Below, in pieces: positions 9,781 to 62,747 of a stretch of 64,000 nt of DNA (the stretch's first letter is position 1; each line of letters begins with the position of its first letter). The stretch is from the NCBI GenBank assembly GCA_026874595.1, contig CM049308.1:92383624-92447623 (forward strand), in the 5' to 3' direction. The position numbers were made by a program, and so were the translations under genes. The stretch is from Sipunculus nudus. Lineage: Eukaryota; Annelida; Sipuncula; Golfingiida; Sipunculidae. The notes under the pieces were generated by a model, which saw nothing but the letters and a program-made list of their open reading frames with translations, was not told where the DNA came from and made no database searches.

Positions 9781-10345
9781 ATCTTCAGGGATGAAGATAT
9801 TGGCAGGTAAGTCTTCAGTAGAGGAGACTATGATAGCAAAAGATCTTCAGTAGACGTGAAGATGGCAAAAGTAGAAGTGACCATGAAAGCAGACAGATCT
9901 TCAGCAGAGATGACCATGATGACAGACAGATCTTCAGTAGAAGAGATCATGATGGCATAAAATCTTCAGTATAGGTGACCATGATTGCAAAAGATCTTCA
10001 GTAAAGGTGACCATGATGGAAAAAAAGTTCTTAAATAGGGGTGACCATGATGGTATAAGGTCTTCATCAGAGGTGACGTGGATAGCAAAAGATCGTCAGT
10101 ACAAGTAACCATGATGGCAAAGGTCTTCAGTAAAGGTAACCATGATGGAAAAAAAGTTCTTAAATAGGGGTGACCATGATGGTATAAGGTCTTAAATAGA
10201 AGTGACCATAACAAAAGATCTTCAGTACAGGTAACCATGATGGCAAAAGATCTTAAGTAAAGGTGACCAGACATGCATGATGGCTAAAGTAGAAGTGACC
10301 ATGATGGCAAAAGACCTTCAGTAGAGGAGACCATGATTGCAAAAG
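9781..10345. repeat. Minisatellite array, subfamily 1 (about 32-bp unit)
   Basis: Tandem degenerate units of the type ATCTTCAGTARAGGTGACC followed by ATGATGGCAAAAG. A longer segment containing a run of seven A and GTTCTTAAATAGGGGTGACC recurs at 10015 and 10144, an offset of 129 bp, so the array has a local higher-order repeat of about four units. It grades into subfamily 2 near 10.34 kb. Confidence 0.93.
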
Positions 10346-11410
10346 ATCTTCAGCAGACATTACGATGACGGCAGCCTAATCTTCAGCAGAGATGACGATG
10401 ACGGCAGCCTAATCTTCAGAGATGACGATAATATCAGATCTTTAGCAGAGATGACGAGGACGGCAGCCTGATCTTCAGCAGAGATAACAATGACGGCAGG
10501 CAAATCTTCAGAGATGACGATAATGGCGGGTCTTTAGCTGGAATGACAAGGACGGCAGCCTGATCTTCAGCAAAGATGACAATGACGGCAAACTAATCTT
10601 TAGAGATGACGATAATGGCGGGTCTTTAGCTGGGATGACGAGGACGGCAACTTGATTTACAGCAGAGATGACGATGACGGCAGGCAAATCTTCAGAGATG
10701 ATAATATCAGATCTTTAGCAGAGATGACGAGGACAGCAACCTGATCTTCAGCAGAGATGACGATGACGGCAGGCAAATCTTCAGAGATTACGATAATGGC
10801 AGATCTTTAGCAGAGATGACGAGGACGGCAGCCTGATCTTCAGAGATGACGATAATATCAGATTTTTAGCAGAGATGACGAGGACGGCAGCCTGATCTTC
10901 AGCAGAGATGACAATGACGGCAGGCAAATCTTCAGAGATGACGATAATGGCAGGTCTTTAGCTGGGATGACGAGGACGGCAGCCTGATCTTCGGCAAAGA
11001 TGACAATGACGGCAGGCTACTCTTCAGAGATGACGATAATGGCGGGTCTTTAGCTGGGATGACGAGGACGGTAGCATGATCTTCAGCAGAGATGACGATG
11101 ACGGCAGGCAAATCTTCAGAGATGATAATATCAGATCTTTAGCAGAGATGACGAGGACAGCAACCTGATCTTCAGCAGAGATGACGATGACGGCAGGCAA
11201 ATCTTCAGAGATTACGATAATGGCAGATCTTTAGCTGGGATGACGAGGACGGCAGCCTGATCTTCAGCAGAGATGACGATACTGGCAGGCTGATCTTCAG
11301 AGATGACGATAATGGCAGATCTTCAACAGGTATGACGATGACGGCAGTGTGATCTTCAGCAGACATGACGATGACGGCAGTGTGATCTTCATTTAAGATG
11401 GCGATACTGC
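10346..11410. repeat. Minisatellite array, subfamily 2 (three-monomer, about 91-bp higher order)
   Basis: Three related monomers alternate: a ~33-bp type (CTTCAGCAGAGATGACGATG), a ~27-bp type lacking the CAG insertion, and a ~32-bp type (CTTTAGCTGGGATGACGAGG). The phrase GGCAGGCAAATCTTCAGAGA recurs at spacings near 91, 150 and 184 bp. The stretch 10681-10810 is repeated without mismatch at 11105-11234, an offset of 424 bp, so a multi-unit block was duplicated recently inside the array. Confidence 0.95.
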
Positions 11411-21275: not shown

Positions 21276-21428
21276 GGTACAGATGACAATGCTAACCCCA
21301 GAATATCGTCCTCGCGAGGGAGGACGGCCGATGAGCCACACATAGGGAAATACCGGCTCATCAAAACCATTGGCAAGGGCAACTTTGCCAAGGTGAAATT
21401 AGCCAAACATGTGCCAACAGGAAAGGAG
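21276..21428 (+). CDS. MARK: MARK/PAR-1 kinase, exon 2 (linker and glycine loop)
   Basis: 51 codons, residues 25-75, with phase 0 at both ends (acceptor TTTCAG, donor GTAAGT). A Ser/Arg-rich linker leads into [17 protein letters not shown], the start of the kinase N-lobe. The ATP-binding glycine loop G57-K-G-N-F-A-K-V64 is intact, followed by the beta-2 strand and PTGKE. This reading is nearly family-consensus for MARK/PAR-1 kinases, which phosphorylate KXGS motifs of microtubule-associated proteins, act in cell polarity and are activated by LKB1 on the T-loop (established knowledge). The gene continues into exon 3 at 26510. Confidence 0.96.
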
Positions 21429-26509: not shown

Positions 26510-26563
26510 GTTGCCATAAAAATAATAGACAAGACACAGTTGAATCCATCCAGTCTACAGAAG
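26510..26563 (+). CDS. MARK: MARK/PAR-1 kinase, exon 3 (catalytic lysine)
   Basis: 18 codons, residues 76-93, reading VAIKIIDKTQLNPSSLQK, phase 0 at both ends, with acceptor ATCTTTCAG and donor GTAAGA. VAIK carries the invariant beta-3 lysine (K79) that holds ATP phosphates. DKTQLNP-SLQK is diagnostic of MARK/PAR-1 among AMPK-related kinases. The exon is too short for ordinary ORF calling. It must splice over about 36 kb to one of the two exon-4 copies at 62.6 kb, whose alpha-C glutamate pairs with K79. Confidence 0.96.
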
Positions 26564-30275: not shown

Positions 30276-32272
30276 TAGGTCTTGGTTAATCATCACAAAA
30301 TGTGGATATGGGTCAGAGCAGGGCAGTCTTAGTTAATCATGTAAACATTCCACAGCAAGACATTCTCAGTTAATCATCTTGTGTATGTGTTCCACAGTAA
30401 GCCAGTCTCAGTTAATCATGTCATCTATTTGGTCCACAGCAACACAGCCTTAATTTATCATCTTGTTTATGGGGTCCACAGCAAGACAGTGTTAGTTAAT
30501 CATCTCATGTATGTGGTCCACAGCAAGAATCTCAGTTAATCATCTCATGTTTGTTGTCCACAGTCAGTCTTGGTTAATCATCTTGTGAATGTTGTCCACA
30601 ATAAGTCAGTCTCGGTTAATCATTTTGTGTATGTGGTCCACAGCAAGACCATCTAGTTTAATCATCTCATGTATGTGGTCAATAGCAAGACACTTTGAGT
30701 TAATTATCTTGGTATGTTATCCACAGCAAGACAGTCTCAGATAATCATTATGTGCACATGTATGCTCCACAGCAAGACAGTCTCAGTTAATCATCTTGTT
30801 TATTTTGTCCACAGTAAGTCAGTCATGGTTAATGATCTTGTGTAGGTTGTCCACAGTAAGTCAGTCTAGGTCAATCATCTCATGTATGTGGTCCATATTA
30901 AGTTAGTCTTGGTTAATCATCTCATGTATGTGGTCCACAACAAGACAGTCTCAGTTAATCATCTCAAGTATGTTGTCCACAGTCAGTCTTTGTTAATCAT
31001 CTTGTGAATGTGTTCCACAGTAAGTCAGTCTCGGTTAATCATTTTGTGTATGTGGTCCACAGCAAGACCATCTAGTTTTTATCATCTCATTTATGTGATC
31101 CATAGCAAGACACTTGAGTAAATTATCTTGGTATGTGGTCCACAGCAAGACAGTCTCAGTTATTCATTATGTGCACATGTATGCTGCACAGCAAGACAGT
31201 CTCAGTTAATCATCTTGTTTATGTTGTCCACAATAAGTCAGTCTTGGTTAATCATCTTGTGTATGTTGTCCACAGTAAGTTAGTCTAGGTTAATCATCTC
31301 ATGTATATGGTCCACAGTAAGTCAGTCTTGGTTAATCATCTCATGTATGTGGTGCACAACAAGACAGTCTCAGTTAATCATCTCAAGTATGTTGTCCACA
31401 GTCAGTCTTTGTTAATCATCTTGTGAATGTTGTCCACAGCAAGTCAGTCTCGGTTAATCATTTTGTGTATGTGGTCCACAGCAATACCATCTAGTTTAAT
31501 CATCTCATTTATGTGGTCCATAGCAAGACACTTGAGTTAATTATCTTGGTATGTGGTCCACAGCAAGACAGTCTCAGTTATTCATTATGTGCACATGTAT
31601 GCTGCACAGCAAGACAGTCTCAGTTAATCATCTTGTTTATGTTGTCCACAATAAGTCAGTCTTGGTTAATCATCTTGTGTTTGTTGTCCACAGTAAGTTA
31701 GTCTAGGTTAATCATCTCATGTATGTGGTCCACAGTAAGTCAGTCTTGGTTAATCATCTCATGTATGTGGTGCACAACAAGACAGTCTCAGTTAATCATC
31801 TCAAGTATGTTGTCCACAGTCTCGATAAATCATTTTGTCCACAGCGTGGACCACAAGACAGTCTCAGTTAATCATCTAGTGTATGTGGTCAACAGCAAGA
31901 CTGTCTCAGTTAATCATCTCTTGTATGTTGTCCACAGTCATCTTGTGAATGTTGTCCACAGTAAGTCAGTCTCGGTTAATCATCTCATGTATGTGGTCCA
32001 CAACAAGACAGTCTTGATTTATCTTCTTGTGTATGGGGTACACAGCAAGACAGTCTTAGTTAAACATATTATGTATGTGTTCCACATCAAGACAGTCTCA
32101 GTTTATCATCTGGTGTATGTGTTCAACATAAGACAGTCAGTTTATCATCTGGTGTATGAGGTCCACAGCAAGACAGTATCTGTTTTTAAATCAACTCATG
32201 TATGTGGTCAACAGCAGGAGTCTCTGTTAATAATCTTTTTGCATGTTGTCCACAGCAAAACAATCTCAGTTA
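30276..32272. repeat. 42-bp satellite array with 10-monomer higher-order repeat
   Basis: About 47 monomers of about 42 bp share the cores GTTAATCATC and TGTCCACAGYAAG. A marker phrase GTGCACATGTATGCT occurs at 30752, 31171 and 31589, spacings of 419 and 418 bp, and the whole monomer order repeats with it, so ten monomers form a higher-order unit. Because 42 is divisible by 3, long open frames run through the array by chance. A few further units follow the right flank at about 32650-32820. Confidence 0.96.
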
Positions 32273-32645
32273 TTTTGACATTGAATACTTCATTTTTCCC
32301 TACACCTGTCTCAGGTGAGAATCCAAGCTCAGGTAGCATGAAAATTAACTTTAAAAACACCTGCACAGGTCAAGGTAGGAATAGTGTATTCATGAGTTTC
32401 ATCATATACATGCAACAGGTCCGCAAAACCTACTGTGCTACATAACAATTAAACAATGTTACTGATATATAAAATAAAAAGAAAAATAAAACTTATTTAC
32501 CATTGATAGCACAGAAAATTCCTGTAAAATTCTATAGTTTATGACTAGCTTGCATTAAAAACATTTGCATATTCATATCAGTTTTTCTGATTTTATTGGT
32601 TCATGTGTAAGGTTAGGTTGCTCGCATTCTTTATTTAACCACAAC
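32273..32645. repeat. Right flanking copy of the ~375-bp direct duplication
   Basis: Partner of 29741-30115. The satellite starts again just after it (about 32650-32820), so a unit of flank plus satellite was duplicated. Confidence 0.9.
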
Positions 32646-41569: not shown

Positions 41570-43880
41570 CGTCTGTCTGTATGTCCGTCTGTCCACCAGG
41601 CACAAATCATAACCGCTGAACCTAGAACCTTGTAACTTGGGATTCTGAGAGGTCCATGAAAAATCTCCTTGGAAACCAGAAATTAGGTCTCTGTTACCCA
41701 TATCCTTCGAGCTATCGGGCCCCAAAGTACCCCCCAGAAAAGTCAAAAATTTCATACAAAAACTTCAATATCTATTAACTACTTGACTGATGGTCATGAT
41801 TTTTGGCATACATATTGATCATGAGATGTTCCATCACTTCCTGCAGACTGGTGGCGCCACCTGTATTTTTCGATTTTTTACAAATTTTTTTCTCTATTTT
41901 TGAGACCTTTAAAAATGTGAACATCTGTTAACAAGGCACAAATCGTAAAGCCTAGACCTAGAATCTTAATTCTTGATACACTGAGAGGTCCATGAAAAAT
42001 CTCCTTGGAAACCAGAAATTAGGTCTCTGTTACCCATATCCTTTGAGCTATTGGGGCCCCAAAGTACCCCCCAGAATAGTAAAAAATTTCATACAAAAAC
42101 TTCAATATCTCAATAACTACAACACTGATGGTCATGATTTTTGTCATACATATTGATCATGAGATGTTCCATAAGTTCCTGCCGACTGGTGGCGCCACCT
42201 GTATTTTTCGATTTTTTTACAATTTTTTCCTCTATTTTTGAGACGTTTAAAGATGCTGTCATCTGTAAACGTGGCACAAATCGTAACCGCTGGACCTAGA
42301 ATCTTCATTCTCGACACACTGAGAAACCTATTAAAAGTCTCCGTGGAAACCATAAATTAGATCTCTGTTACCCATATCCTTCGAGCTATGGGGCCCCAAA
42401 GTACCCCCCAGAAAAGTCAAAAATTTCATACAAAAACTTCAATATCTCATTAACTACTTGACTGATGGTCATGATTTTTGGCATACGTATTGATCATGAG
42501 ATGTTCCATCACTTCCTGCAGACTGGTTGTGCCACCTGAATTTTTTGATTTTTTACAAATTTAAAAATGTGAACAGCTGTTAACAGGGCACAAATCATAA
42601 AGACTAGACCTAGAATCTTCATTCTTGACACACTGAGAGGTCCATAAAAAGTCTGCATGGAAACCTGAAATAAGGTCTCTGTTACCCATATCCTTTGAGC
42701 TATGGGGGGCTCCCAATAACCCCCCAGAATAATGGAAAATTTGATAAAAACAAACTGCAACATCTCAATAACTACAACACTGATGGTCATGATTTTTGGC
42801 ATACATATTGATCAAGAGGTGTTTCATCAGTACCTGCAGACTGGTGGTGCCACCTGTATTTTTTCAAATTTTCACAATTTTTTTTTCTCTATTTTCGAGA
42901 TTTTACAGGATGTAGTTATCTGTCAACAGGGTACAAATCGCAACAACTGGACCTAGAATCTTCATTGTTGACACACAGGGAGACCCATGATAAGCCCCAT
43001 GGACACCTGAAATTAGGTCTCTGTTACCCATATCCTTTGAGCTATGGCACTCCAAAGTACAGCTCAGAATAATGGAAAATTTGATACAAAAGCTGAAGTA
43101 TCTGAACAACTAATGCAGAGATCACCATAATTGTTTTCATGGATATTGATCATGGAGTGTTTCATCAGTTTCTGCAGACTGGTGGCACCACCTGTATTTG
43201 TTCGATTTTTTTACGAATTTTTTCTCTATTTTTGAGACCTTTAAAGTTATGAACATCTGTTAACAGGGCACAAATCATTAAAACTGGACCTAGAATCTTC
43301 ATTCTTGACACACAGGGAGACCCATGAAAATTCTCCATGGAAACCTGAAATTAGGTCTCTGTTACCCATATTCTTTAAGCTGTATGGCTCCAAATTACCC
43401 CCCAGAATAATGGAAAATTTGATACAAAAACTGCAGTATCTCAATAACTACAACACTGATGGTCATGATTTTCGGCATACATATTGATCATGACCTGTTC
43501 CATCAGTTTCTGCAGACTGGGTGCGCCACCTCTATTTTTTTCAAATTTTTATGATTTTTTTTCTCTTTTTTTGATACCTTTAAGATGTGGTTATCTGTCA
43601 ACAGGGTACAAATCGCAACAACTGGACCTAGAATCTTCATTCTTGTCATGCAAGAAGGCCCATGAAAAGTGCCTGTGGAAACTTAAAATTAGGTCTCTGT
43701 TACCCATATCCTTCAAGCTATAGGACTCTGAAGTATCGCTCAGAATAATGGACAATTTGATACAAAAGCTGAAGTATCTGAACAACTAATAGGGAGATCA
43801 CCATGATTCTTTGCATGGATATTGATGTTTGTAAGTGTTTTTATTAGTTTCTGCAGACTGGTGGAGCCACCTGTATTTTT
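41570..43880 (+). repeat. ~338-bp tandem units of element A
   Basis: Seven units are marked by CTGCAGACTGG-type anchors at 41841, 42179, 42516, 42834, 43172, 43510 and 43851 (spacings 338, 337, 318, 338, 338, 341). Each unit carries ACCTAGAATCTTCATTC, TAGGTCTCTGTTACCCATAT, GATGGTCATGATTTTTGGCA and a GGTGGCGCCACCTGTATTTT-type segment. Confidence 0.95.
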
Positions 43881-45475
43881 GTACCCGCCAAAACGAAGTT
43901 TTGTGGATACTATGTTTTTGACAGGGTTCCTCCGCCGTTGCGGCGTTCGTTTCCAGAGAGCTCCTCTGGGACTTGATTTTATCAGCTTTCCAAGCTCATA
44001 TCTCGGGAACCGTTTGACTGATCAGGAAATAAAATTTATACTAATGTAGCCCTTGGATAGCTCTATAACATACACAACATACGCCACCTGTAACCATGTT
44101 TGCACAGTGTCCATCTGTTCATCTGCCTTTGGTTAAAATCACTCATATCTCTGCAGTGAATTGACTAATTCACCTGAAATTCGGCATGCGTATACATCCT
44201 GGATAGCTTTCTTGATTTTATGACAGGTGGCGCCACCTACATTCTCATTCACGCTGATGACATCCAAGCTCATATTGCGGGAACCGTTTGACCAATCGGG
44301 CCAAAATTTTGCATGTATATAGATCTAACATAGCTCTTTATCATACACAAAACTGGTGGCGCCACCTGCAACCATTTTTGCACAGCGTCTGTCTGTTTGT
44401 CTGCCGTGCAATAATGTCACTCATATCTCGGCAGTGGTTTGACATATCTGCCTAAAATTTTGCAGTTTTATACATCCTGGATAGCTTTCTTGATTTTATG
44501 ACAGGTGGCACCACCTACATTCACGTTCACGCTGATGACATCCAAGCTCATATCTCGGGAACCGTTTGACCGATCGGGCCAAAATTTTGCATCTTTATAG
44601 ATCTAACATAGCTCTTTATCATACACAAAACTGGTGGCACCACCTGCAACCATTTTTGCACAGCATCTGTCTGTTTGTCTGCCGTGCAATAAAGTCACTC
44701 ACATCTTGGCAGTGGTTTGACATATCTGCCTAAAATTTTGCAGTTTTATACATCCTGGATAGCTTTCTTGATTTTATGACAGGTGGCGCCACCTTTATTC
44801 TAGTTTATGCTGCAGACATCCAAGCTCATATCTCGGGAACCGTTTGAACGATTGGGCCAAAATTCTGCATGTGTATAGATCTCACATAGGTCTTTATCAT
44901 ACACAAAACTGGAGGGGCCACCTGCAACCATTTTTGCACATTTCGCACAGCGTCTGTCTGTTGGTCTGCCGTGGCCTAAAATCACTCATTTCTCTGTAGT
45001 GGTTTGACATAACTGCCTAACATTTTGCAGGTTTATACATCCTGGATAGCTTTCATGATTTTATGACAGGTGGCGCCACCTACATTCTAGTTAACGCTGC
45101 ACACATCCAAGCTAATATCTCAGGAACCATTTGACTGATTGGGCCAAAATTGTGCTTGTGTTTAGATCTCACATAGGTCTTTATCATACACAAAACTGCA
45201 ACCATTTTTGCACAGCGTCTGTCTGTTTGTCTGCCGTGGGCTAAAATCACTCATATCCATGTAGTGGTTTGACTTTTCTGCTTAAAATTTTGCATATGTA
45301 TACAACTTGGACAGCTTTCTGGATTTGTGGTAGGTTGCACAACCTACATACACATTTAGGCTGCAGACATCAATGCTAATATGCAACATACCTCACTCTG
45401 TTTCCCCTTGCAACTCAATCCATGCCTCACTTCACTCTGATTTTGGCAGATACACGTAGTCACTTGTCGGCTACC
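43881..45475 (+). mobile_element. Hairpin-headed element nested in A (element B)
   Basis: It begins with a hairpin (43881-43910) whose arms are GTACCCGCCAAAAC and GTTTTGTGGATAC around loop GAA. Near its end, ATTTTGGCAGATAC (about 45448-45461) resembles the reverse complement of the left arm (11 of 14). On both sides of B the element-A unit continues: CACCTGTATTTTT before it, and a TTTTTTCTCTATTTTTCAGA segment after it. B therefore inserted into A. Its body is about five units of about 278 bp, anchored by CCAAGCTCATATCTCGGGAA at about 43990, 44263, 44542, 44820 and 45107. Confidence 0.65.
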
Positions 45476-47914: not shown

Positions 47915-48800
47915 TATCCAAAGACAAAGTCGGGGGATAATATGTTTTCATACCGGTCCCGCTGCCGCATATAAATCTTGTTAGCGTGATAACTCAAAAA
48001 ATATTTCACAGATCTTTACCAAACTTTGTATATGTATAGATATTGGTGAGAGGACAACGCCTATTTAAAATGAGGTCATGACCTTGACGAGGAGAGTGTC
48101 CTTGACCTTGAATAGGTCCAATTTAGGGGAAAATCACACAAATTCTTAAATATCTCAAGAAATCTTGCATGGATTGATCCAAAAATCAAGTTGATGGAGG
48201 ATCATGGATAGGGTTGTCATTTTCTAGAAACTGGTGGCACCACCTATTATTCTTTACTTGTTTTCGTGCCGTTTAATACCCCCAAAATTGCCACTTGACA
48301 GAACTGTGAGCATTATAAGTCAAAAACTAATGGACAGATTTCTTTTATATTATGCATATACATAGATAAGGGTTATGGGATGATGTTTATTTAAATTGGG
48401 GTCATGACCTTTCCTATGAGAGTGGCCTTGACCTTGAATATTGCCATATATGGTGAAAATCACACAAAATCATTAATATCTCAATAAGGGATGCATTGAT
48501 TGGTCCAAAAATCAACTTGACTGAAGATCTTGGATAGTGTTGTCATGTACCGGAAACTGGTAGCGCCACCTGTTATTCTTTTACTTGTTTTTGTGCCGTT
48601 TAATACCCCATCATTGCCACTTAACAGTACTTTGAGCATTATAAGTAAAAAACTGATGGAGAGATTTCTTTTATATTATGCATATACATAAACATGGGTT
48701 AGGGGATGATGTATATTGAAATTGGGGTCATGACCTTTTCTATGAGAGTGACCTTTTCTATGAGTGTGGTCTGATATTAATTGTTGCTGAAGATGGGGGG
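47915..48800 (+). mobile_element. Third hairpin-headed tandem element (element C)
   Basis: It starts with a decayed hairpin: TATCCAAAGAC and GTCGGGGGATA around AAA, with three mismatches. The text ATATGTTTTCA follows, comparable to the TATGTTTTTGA after the element B hairpin. The body is about 2.5 units of about 325-335 bp sharing GTCATGACCTT, TTGACCTTGAATA, GGTCCAAAAATCAA and a degenerate GGTGGCACCACC / GGTAGCGCCACC. The 3' limit is uncertain. Confidence 0.55.
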
Positions 48801-52823: not shown

Positions 52824-52877
52824 CCTGTAACGATTATCTTTAGTAAATAGATGTCAGATTTGGAATATGCCCTTGTT

Positions 52878-53297
52878 ACATCCTCTCATCCCTCCATCTC
52901 CCAGTACCAGTCAAACTCAGTGACACTTATTACTGTAACATCCTCTCATCTCTGCATCTCACAGTACCAGTCAAACTCAGTGACACTTATTACTGTAACA
53001 TCCTCTCATCCCTCCATCTCCCAGTACCAGTCAAACTCAGTGACACTTATTACTGTAACATCCTCTCATCCCTCCATCTCCCAGTACCAGTCAAACTCAG
53101 TGACACTTATAACTGTAACATCCTCTCATCCCTCCATCTCCCAGTACCAGTCAAACTCAGTGACACTTATTACTGTAACATCCTCTCATCCCTCCATCTC
53201 CCAGTACCAGTTAAACTCATTGACACTTATTACAGTAATATCCTCTCATCCCTCCATCTCCCAGTACCAGTTAAACTCAGTGACACTCATTACTTGT
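52878..53297. repeat. 60-bp tandem array, seven near-identical units
   Basis: The exact 60-bp period starts with ACATCCTCTCATCCCTCCAT. Most units differ by 0-3 bases, with the outer units more diverged, so the array is young or homogenised. Because 60 is divisible by 3 it reads as a 20-residue peptide repeat, but it lies inside the MARK intron without splice context. Confidence 0.98.
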
Positions 53298-56200
53298 GTT
53301 ATGAATGTTGGGCCTTTGTAATTTCTTGCAAACTTTAGTTTGAAACTGACCTGGTTACTATGGCTTGGCTTCTGTGGCGTCTCAATCGACTTAAATGCTA
53401 CATCACAATAGAAAATAAAATATTTTGTTAGTCTTATAATGTTATGAGTATAGGAACCATGTTTTTATTTTGAGTAATTATGAAGTATTATGATGATTCC
53501 CAGCCTTATAACAATAGTACAGGGAGCATCATACAGGGAGCATGCTAATACACACTTGAAAACAAGGAAGACATTCCTATAATAATAATAATTAATTTCT
53601 TGTTGCACATATTTAGGGCAGTTTGCAGTTTGCTTCAGTGTGTATAAATGTATGTTGTGTTATATATCACAGAGTATGACTATTATCATGATGACACAAT
53701 GAAGATATAGTACAAAGAATGAAGGAAACCTTATTAAAAGTTAAGTCAGTAAATTTTGCTATTATGATTCACTCTGATACCTGAATTTAATATCAGTGTG
53801 TGAGTCAAAATTCCACAGTGATAGAGGGGTGACTTGGATTTAGGGTGAATGCTTTGTGGGACTGGTTTGGTATTCCCATTTGGACTGTATTGTGGATATG
53901 GCATGTCTTGTGAACAGGAAATGCAGCCTGATATTTGTCAGGGCAGTATGTGGGCCACACACTGTGTGTGAAGGAGAACAGGTCCTGACAGGGAGCCCTC
54001 TTGACCCTCATGTATAATCTCTCACACTGCCCTGAGTGGTACCACTGTCATTTGCAAATATGGCCTCCCCAAATACACGCAGTTACCAAGTCCAGTATAT
54101 TCTATTATATCAAGAGAGTCACAGTTCTCTGAACAAGAGAGTGAGAGACAGAAAGACAGACTTTATTAGACCAAGGAACTGTTTACATCTGAAAATTAAA
54201 ATTGATCTTTCACTGAGATGTAACATTTAAGGAGAGAGCAATTATTGGATGACCGTTAAAAGAAAAACATGATGTATTAAATGTAAACCACATCCCAAAA
54301 AGGATACTTCTCCAGTCTAGTTTTTGTGTTATTTATTGGGAGAAAGCAGTATATAGGTATGTAAGAGATAAATGAACAGTTGATCACAAGTGAAAAAGCA
54401 AGGAAAGGTTACAGTGACCAGACTGTATACAGGAATCTGTATCATCACATGAAATAGGTGTATGATTAAATGAATAAACCTGTGTTATATCCTTTGCAAA
54501 AGAAATTTAGTGTCAGAACTGTTGAAAGTCCATTTGGTAAAGTCCTACCCTGAAGCCTAAGTTGATATGCTACAGTTAAATAATCTCAAAGGTAGTATGA
54601 TAAACTGCCAATTGATAGATGATTCTGGATGATGCCCCAAGTTTTATATATTTTATTATGAACCTTTTAATGCAGTTGAAAGTGAAAAGGGAAACTTGTA
54701 ATCTGAAGTGAAGGAGTACAACAAGTACTTTTACTACTACTGTATGATCTGGTACTTAAAGCTTTGTAACCCTGGAGGTAATTGGTGCAACAAAATCCTG
54801 TACCGCTCCAGTACAAACCAGTATATAACATGTGTACATGTAACCATTGCGCTGCAGCACTTCACAATCTGTACCTGTCATTGTTGTGTGTATGCCGTGT
54901 ATGATCAGTACACTAAATGTTTACACTTGGATGAAAAAAAGGGTACTTGAACTGTACCCAAGTACCACTGACATACACAGTTCAAACGGTGGTACATGAT
55001 ATTTGGGAATTTTATGGAAGTAAAAAGATAAACTACAAACTATCCAAACTGTGCAGTCATGACCTTCCTCTTTTCATCCCAACACAGATTTTAGGGACTG
55101 GGTGTTTATGAATATTCATGTGGGAATCATAGACCTGTTGAATATTCATGATTTGCTCCATTACCTACCAGTAAAGACATTGATCTTGAAAGGTAAATGC
55201 CCTCTTGTTAAACCCTGTGTCAAAACATAATTATCCATTTCAACTGTACTCTGTTTGAAAAACAAGGTACACCAACTAAAGGTGCTATTATTGACTCTGA
55301 GTATATGAAACCCTAATATCTTGAAGGCTTATAAAATGAACACAGTGTATCATTCTTTATCATATGTTGAATCTTTTCTTCTTTCAGAAGTTTCTTGTCT
55401 AGTCCCTTCTTTTGAAAAAAATCCCATGGCATACAAGATTGTCCATACAAGATACAAGATATAAAAAATAAATGTTTGAGTGTACTTTAGCACCTCAAGA
55501 TCATACACTGACACCTCTGCATCAGTAAAATCCAACCCCCCACAATAAGCTTGTTTATTTAGCCACCAATAGTCAAGCACTTGGGTCTGGTGCAGTTCAT
55601 TCCGGTTGAACTTTGTCAAGACCTAATCTGATATGGAGATTTCTGTCTCCTGCAGGCACACATCAACCTGACATTAAAAAAGTTGACATGATCTAGTGCA
55701 TGACAAGTTCAGAGTTTTGTCTAAGGATCCAAAAATGCTGTACTAAGGATGTGCCTGATAAGGGGATTTCTTTTGCAGTGTGATGGAGCACATATACTGA
55801 TGCTTGTATAAGGTGTTATTTATAGTGAAGATGATCAGGGAGAATTGACATAGATAACACATGCATAAGAAACACTGAGAATCAGGAAAATTGATATATT
55901 TCAATTACTTGCAGTAATTTGTTACAAGTTAATATTATCCATCATTACTGTAGTTTGTGTCAACCAGTCATCTTTATTTATTGTTTTGATGGTATGTTTA
56001 TTAATATCTTAAAAAGGCTTTCAGTTAAAGTTTATAGAGATGCATGTCTTTGTAATGTTGCACAAAACTTTGTGGAAGAAACTTGCTTGTAAATATTCTA
56101 ATTATTTAATTTATGAACATGAATATTATAATGAATGGTATACAAACATCTGAAAAATACATATATTGACAATATGCTCACACCCTCTTTTTTTCTGTAT

Positions 56201-58659: not shown

Positions 58660-59140
58660 ATCTATAGATCCTACCAGTAGGATCGCATTTTCTACTGGTT
58701 GGCTTATTTATCATTAATTGAAGTTCCTACCAGTAAGATGGCAGTTTCTACTGGCCTGGTAGGATTGCAGTTTCTACTAGTTGGCTTATTTATCATTAAT
58801 TGAAGTTCCTACCAGTAAGATCACAGTTTCTACTGGCCTGGTAGGATTGCAGTTTCTACTGGTTGGCCCATAAGTAAAATTGAAGTTCCTACCAGTAGGA
58901 TCACAGTTTCTTCAGGTAGGAACTGTGATTGGAGTCTCTACCAGTATAGTATCAGTAGAATTGAAGTTTCTAACTGTAGGATCGGAGTTCCTACTGGTAG
59001 AAACCATGATCAAAATCTCTACTAGTAGGATCGGAGTTTCTACCTGTAGAAACTCCGATTGTGGTTTCTACCAGCAGAGACTCTGATCGTAGTTTCTACT
59101 GGTAGAAACTCCGATTCTACCAGATCGCAGTCTCTACCTT
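58660..59140. repeat. Dyad-symmetric minisatellite, block 2
   Basis: It uses the same half-sites as block 1. An internal 81-bp repeat carries GTTGGCTTATTTATCATTAA. A perfect palindrome with 14-nt arms ATCGGAGTTTCTAC / GTAGAAACTCCGAT and a 2-nt centre lies at 59030-59059. Confidence 0.9.
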
Positions 59141-62561: not shown

Positions 62562-62610
62562 CTGTACAGGGAAGTAAGAATAATGAAAACATTGGACCAT
62601 CCTAACATAG
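62562..62610 (+). CDS. MARK: MARK/PAR-1 kinase, exon 4 version a (alternative)
   Basis: 49 nt: 16 codons LYREVRIMKTLDHPNI plus one base, entering in phase 0 after exon 3 and leaving one base (G) for the next codon. Acceptor TCATTTCAG and donor GTAAGT are good. It encodes the alpha-C helix region, with the glutamate E97 that forms the salt bridge to K79. Compared with version b it has Tyr at 95 and Thr at 103. The third-position differences from version b are mostly silent, which argues that both copies are functional. Including both exons would add 98 nt and break the frame, so only one can be used per transcript. The following exon lies outside the window. Confidence 0.88.
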
Positions 62611-62698
62611 GTAAGTTTTGTTATATGTGTGGCCTCTGCAGGCTTGCTGTTGGTGTGGTTCTAACCTAACCCTGCCCTTGCCTGCTCTGTCTTTGCAG

Positions 62699-62747
62699 CT
62701 TTTTAGGGAAGTAAGAATAATGAAGGTTCTAGATCACCCCAACATAG
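62699..62747 (+). CDS. MARK: MARK/PAR-1 kinase, exon 4 version b (canonical-like)
   Basis: 49 nt, LFREVRIMKVLDHPNI plus one base, with acceptor TCTTTGCAG and donor GTGAGT. This version matches the usual MARK/PAR-1 wording (LFREVRIMK-L-HPNI), so it is probably the ancestral or default form. It differs from version a at 12 of 49 bases and 2 of 16 residues. Only 88 bp separate the exons, which could sterically prevent splicing of one to the other. The phase-1 end fits the family continuation (Ile-Val) in the next exon beyond the window. Confidence 0.93.

Follow-up and report, generated by a model that had tools for sequence, protein, structure and literature searches.

Candidate mutually exclusive exons for helix C in a MARK/PAR-1 kinase gene of Sipunculus nudus

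Mutually exclusive exons occur in several protein kinase genes, namely exons 6a/6b of JNK (MAPK8/9/10), 7A/7B of FYN and A1/A2 of the Aplysia PKA catalytic subunit; to our knowledge these pairs all lie outside helix C, and none is in MARK. The accessible portion of PMC3625193 gives no confirmation of the Aplysia exons. Tandemly duplicated exons are reported in about 10% of animal genes (PMC9013439, in excerpt), and in 60% of human clusters of mutually exclusive exons there are exon lengths that are not multiples of three (PMC5740500, in excerpt). Drosophila par-1 (CG8201) appears in a list of genes that have mutually exclusive exons, their place in the gene being unstated in the available portion of PMC3303723. 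No description of a helix C exon pair in MARK was found among the best literature matches listed (main text of open-licence papers). A sequence-only reading of the present locus knew of no exon pair described at this place in MARK genes, a statement that those matches do not contradict but that has to be tempered by the Drosophila case.

The window, by which we mean the whole 64,000-nucleotide stretch of Sipunculus nudus DNA analysed here, lies on a 97.9-Mb contig of the 1.43-Gb assembly that was searched. Kinase exons were placed by tblastn with a MARK-like kinase query, and their coordinates are given in window numbering, which is continued beyond 64000 (loci L002-L005 and L008-L010). The exons lie in consecutive order along the contig, those within the window on the + strand. 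The conserved part of exon 2 (21351..21428, from tblastn and sequence) encodes the glycine-rich loop in 26 residues and has a gtaagt donor; exon 3 (26510..26563, from tblastn and splice sites; 54 nt, VAIKIIDKTQLNPSSLQK) carries the catalytic Lys and ends in phase 0, at the base previously read as its end. Next come two copies of exon 4, here called 4a and 4b, which match the query with E values of 5.8e-5 and 1.4e-5 over 104 kb. Further exons lie 3' of these at 83269-83334, 84062-84132, 85042-85098, 91504-91639, 92377-92477 and 98840-98959, followed by exons 11a and 11b, a UBA exon from about 104119 and a KA1 exon at about 122448. Large tandem arrays with periods of 32 to 424 bp are present 5' of exon 2 and within intron 3 (window 9812-11391, 30349-32272, 41599-43880, 44082-45382, 48062-48755, 52874-53294 and 58677-59027), and two of them overlap long open frames (31702-32445 and 52847-53338).

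The gene is a MARK/PAR-1 gene, as had been proposed, having a kinase domain closest to MARK together with UBA and KA1 domains. Among the best 60 of 230 matches to the joined kinase exons, to which Pfam assigns Pkinase, the leading ones are chains of MARK1-4 (E 1.7e-155 to 1.7e-145), followed by SIK3 (1e-109). The UBA exon sits 3' of the kinase domain, and Pfam places UBA_MELK above its cut-off and UBA_SIK3 below. The KA1 domain is recognised by PF02149 (E 1e-17 at C3:92506200) and by tblastn at 93% to a MARK KA1; it is the best KA1 match in the genome, where two more, on C2 and C17, exceed the family cut-off.

Exons 4a (62562..62610, +) and 4b (62699..62747, +) are each 49 nt long, run from phase 0 to phase 1 with AG acceptors and GT donors, and are separated by an intron of 88 nt (62611..62698, +), exactly as the two same-phase exons with splice sites had been described. 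Exon 4a (LYREVRIMKTLDHPNI) has the acceptor aacaaaaatactcatttcag and the donor TAG/gtaagt, and exon 4b (LFREVRIMKVLDHPNI) the donor TAG/gtgagt, both donors being near consensus. A recount agreed with the earlier figures: the copies differ at 12 of 49 bases and at two of 16 residues (F/Y and V/T), and the eight codons that differ (of 16) comprise six silent and two residue-changing cases. None of 500 shuffles reached the local alignment score of 4a with 4b, and a degenerate REVRIMK-xx-LDHP pattern, allowing zero mismatches, has two matches in the entire genome, which are 4a and 4b themselves (reversed control, 0); with the tblastn matches, these results rule out chance similarity. The adjoining introns show no similarity beyond that of shuffled sequences over 88-bp flanks, their scores being reached by 114 (5') and 177 (3') of 500 shuffles, and this loss of intron similarity suggests that the duplication is probably old. 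The two are thus adjacent, internal exons of similar length and the same phase, homologous and with splice sites, the combination by which clusters of mutually exclusive exons are defined.

Another MARK gene or a retrocopy was rejected as the source of 4a, the best KA1 match lying in this gene and the exact pattern being found only at 4a and 4b in a search that a diverged, pattern-breaking copy would escape. A SIK-type helix C motif, searched as an exact pattern, gave no matches, but its reversed control itself gave one, so that the absence carries no weight. Elsewhere in the assembly, an open kinase frame of 216 aa at C11:22753383-22753937 has 52% identity to residues 1-183 of the MARK-like query and may represent an intron-poor MARK-related kinase or a retrocopy. 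Of 11 COX1 matches in the assembly, ten are long frames without stops in the bacterial code (on C60, C61, C62, C66, C72, C74, C75, C89 and C123). There is no clear mitochondrial COX1 among these matches, and the copy on C60 is 52-58% identical to the 80 listed relatives from GTDB. The contigs with bacterial-type COX1 perhaps derive from associated bacteria, of several similar strains, within the animal's assembly.

The reading frame bears directly on how 4a and 4b can be used. The exon that follows 4b begins in phase 1, so that a single copy fits after exon 3. Joint inclusion of 4a and 4b shifts the frame, as the sequence-only reading had it, and was computed to give a stop inside 4b, while skipping of both gives a stop directly after exon 3. 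Since both or neither copy means an early stop, a productive mRNA must contain exactly one, and from the exon anatomy we infer that 4a and 4b are used in a mutually exclusive manner. Within the intervening intron, two CTAAC motifs are putative branch points by sequence: the first has its A at 62664, 53 nt from the 4a donor and 34 nt from the 4b acceptor, and the second at 62669, with distances of 58 and 29 nt. In the available text of PMC5740500, a human survey set a donor-to-branch-point distance of < 50 bp for steric block; the spacing at 4a/4b is just above this limit, which would make such a block borderline, and steric exclusion was not adopted as the main mechanism for this reason.

The same MARK gene contains a second duplicated pair, which lies outside the window and 37 kb further on. 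Exon 11a is 100 nt long (C3:92483894-92483993, L005:6271-6370, window numbering 100271-100370; 33 residues) and exon 11b 97 nt (C3:92484638-92484734, L005:7015-7111, window numbering 101015-101111; TVMKDRWMNIGHEEHELRPYREPSKEFDTQRI). Each runs from phase 0 to phase 1, and both encode the end of the kinase domain, a common-docking-like motif and the UBA linker. They have 18 of 32 aligned residues in common and differ at 15.5 of 18.7 synonymous sites, near saturation; no shuffle of 500 reaches their alignment score, and the flanks show no clear likeness (scores reached by 47 and 130 of 500). Neutral evolution for half of their divergence is rejected (P 0.005), for a quarter it is not (P 0.73). 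Joint inclusion was computed to give a stop inside 11b, and none of the four combinations of 4a/4b with 11a/11b meets a stop between exon 3 and the end of exon 11. The distance of 644 bp between 11a and 11b makes a steric block unlikely here. On its exon structure, the gene probably comprises two mutually exclusive clusters and could encode four isoforms.

Queries made of exon 11a or 11b plus UBA each returned 20 distinct PDB sequences (E up to 0.001), all 20 of them MARK, in part by way of the common UBA. As given in an excerpt of PMC2604893, the MARK docking motif is ExxE with x being E or D, with the exception of EGEE in MARK4; the corresponding motifs are EDEE in 11a and EEHE in 11b. At two diagnostic positions only, 11a reads DKW...GYE as in MARK4 and 11b DRW...GHE as in MARK1, MARK2 and MARK3. 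Identities over 33 residues are 22 for 11a and 22 for 11b to MARK1, 22 and 19 to MARK4, and 19 and 18 to MARK3, and overall identity does not cleanly separate a MARK4-like 11a from a MARK1-3-like 11b.

We consider it likely that the MARK exon for helix C of the kinase N-lobe was duplicated in tandem long ago, giving 4a and 4b, and that these are used as mutually exclusive alternatives. Silent and replacement differences between them are very uneven by the Nei-Gojobori method, with pS of 0.87 (9 of 10.3 sites) and pN of 0.08 (3 of 37.7 sites), and silent sites so near saturation with so little change in protein make both copies look selected, in support of what had been claimed earlier. When 12 random substitutions were placed on 4b, two or fewer residue changes without a stop resulted in a fraction 2e-5 of 100,000 trials, rising to 0.036 for 6 changes, 0.10 for 5 and 0.26 for 4, so that the test is weak with regard to 4a should its branch have received only a small share of the 12 changes. 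Silent divergence is itself uneven along the exon. A purine-rich core of 20 nt, AGGGAAGTAAGAATAATGAA, is identical in both copies (62568-62587 and 62705-62724) and has a donor-like AAGTAAGA within it; degenerate codons have changed in 0 of 5 cases in this core and in 6 of 8 elsewhere (Fisher P 0.02, for a region chosen post hoc). The core could serve as an exonic splicing signal or reflect a patch of conversion.

An alternative holds 4a to be a relic of the old duplication, now either unspliced or spliced only as noise removed by nonsense-mediated decay, with all protein made from 4b; it draws on two kinds of difference between the copies. The 4a acceptor is the weaker, with pyrimidines at 7 of the 16 bases upstream compared to 13 of 16 for 4b and 7 to 15 for the other nine exons (the lowest value, 7, being shared by exon 9). 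Within 100 nt upstream of 4a, yUnAy motifs are confined to positions 85 and 6 nt before the acceptor, and none lies at a usual distance. In addition, 4b resembles the compared MARK chains, which are presumably mammalian, more closely, agreeing with MARK2 at 15 of 16 residues where 4a agrees at 13. However, the reading frame of 4a, its acceptor and donor and 14 of 16 residues have been retained despite the near-saturation of silent sites, which speaks against a relic. At the lower 95% limit of synonymous divergence (1.24), and with site counts rounded to whole numbers, neutral drift for half of the divergence would produce about 16 nonsynonymous differences compared to the 3 observed (P 3e-6), and drift for a quarter of it about 10 (P 0.006). 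We therefore regard a relic 4a as unlikely.

It is also conceivable, if much less probable, that joint inclusion of 4a with 4b or of 11a with 11b is frequent and leads to mRNA decay, the duplicates acting as poison exons that mainly set the amount of MARK and not its sequence. The donors of 4a and 4b are near consensus, the 88-nt intron is in principle removable, and joint inclusion of this pair leads to a stop inside 4b; yet a poison exon has no need to keep its protein sequence, and the silent and replacement differences point to constraint at the protein level. That the pair is known from a single assembly leaves some room for an artefact in which two allelic versions were set in tandem. 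We consider this extremely improbable given the number of exon bases that differ, the unlike flanking introns and the further duplicated pair, 11a/11b, that this gene carries.

Returning to alternative use of both pairs, we propose that each productive mRNA would include one exon of each pair through frame-dependent decay of the other products; exclusive splicing of the two pairs is expected chiefly because early stops interrupt those other products. The short 88-nt intron between 4a and 4b might help exclusion there, subject to its borderline spacing. The stronger pyrimidine tract of 4b suggests that 4b is probably the default and 4a the regulated form. In this way one gene may give rise to a cell-polarity enzyme in several tuned forms.

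The swap had been placed in the alpha-C helix beside the catalytic Lys-Glu pair. Its location in helix C stands, and can be refined in that each exon contains the helix C Glu itself, that of REVRIMK and the catalytic partner of Lys; the residues that vary are at Glu-2 (F/Y) and Glu+6 (V/T). Glu+6 also differs among the MARK1, MARK2 and MARK4 chains listed (I, V and G, respectively), so if the pair is used as proposed the site varied by splicing would be one that differs among these chains. Tyrosine at Glu-2 is not claimed as a SIK feature, as a SIK-like query had Y and both SIK3 sequences listed have F. The UBA linker of mouse MELK (MPK38) holds helix C, pushing it inward and contacting Arg65, eight residues past the catalytic Glu57, and in inactive MARK1 the linker makes only one N-lobe contact near helix C (both from the accessible part of PMC3940201). 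In a SAD kinase, UBA residues pack against the C-terminal end of helix C, and MARK UBA domains have been reported to act indirectly (PMC4686854, as excerpted). The MELK linker and SAD UBA contacts with helix C indicate that both exon pairs encode elements able to touch in relatives. The single contact in MARK1 and the indirect action of MARK UBA domains weigh against such an effect in MARK itself. It is plausible, as a hypothesis, that the 4a/4b swap affects kinase activity or control by LKB1, as had been suggested, and the F/Y and V/T changes together with the linker swap would shift the helix C balance and the contact between kinase and UBA, without switching the kinase off. It is possible, though we think it rather doubtful, that the two clusters act as a 2 x 2 system on touching elements, helix C and UBA linker, with four isoforms giving graded autoregulation by splicing in place of the four MARK genes of vertebrates.

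The JNK, FYN and Aplysia PKA exons are likewise alternative duplicated exons in or beside a kinase domain that tune the enzyme. The place in the MARK helix C, a main control lever of protein kinases, is what sets the present pair apart, together with the second pair for the UBA linker, its partner in part of the family; mutually exclusive exons formed by tandem duplication are a known class. With that general class, as it appears in excerpts of PMC5740500, PMC3228551 and PMC9013439, the MARK pair shares near-equal length, phase, likeness, adjacency and a frame break on joint inclusion, and it differs in encoding helix C of a protein kinase, in being accompanied by the linker pair and in being known here from DNA alone. 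Drosophila par-1 is also a PAR-1 gene, listed with mutually exclusive exons, although the criterion in the available portion of PMC3303723 does not require homologous copies. If the proposed use is correct, a splice swap of helix C and linker would give matched isoforms, distinguished by two helix C residues and the linker, for testing how MARK activity, LKB1 activation and UBA docking are tuned. In vertebrate MARK1-4 the docking motif and linker vary, as does Glu+6 in the three chains named above; there the variation is between genes, whereas that of 4a/4b is between exons of one gene, and exon duplication in one lineage would then parallel gene duplication in another.
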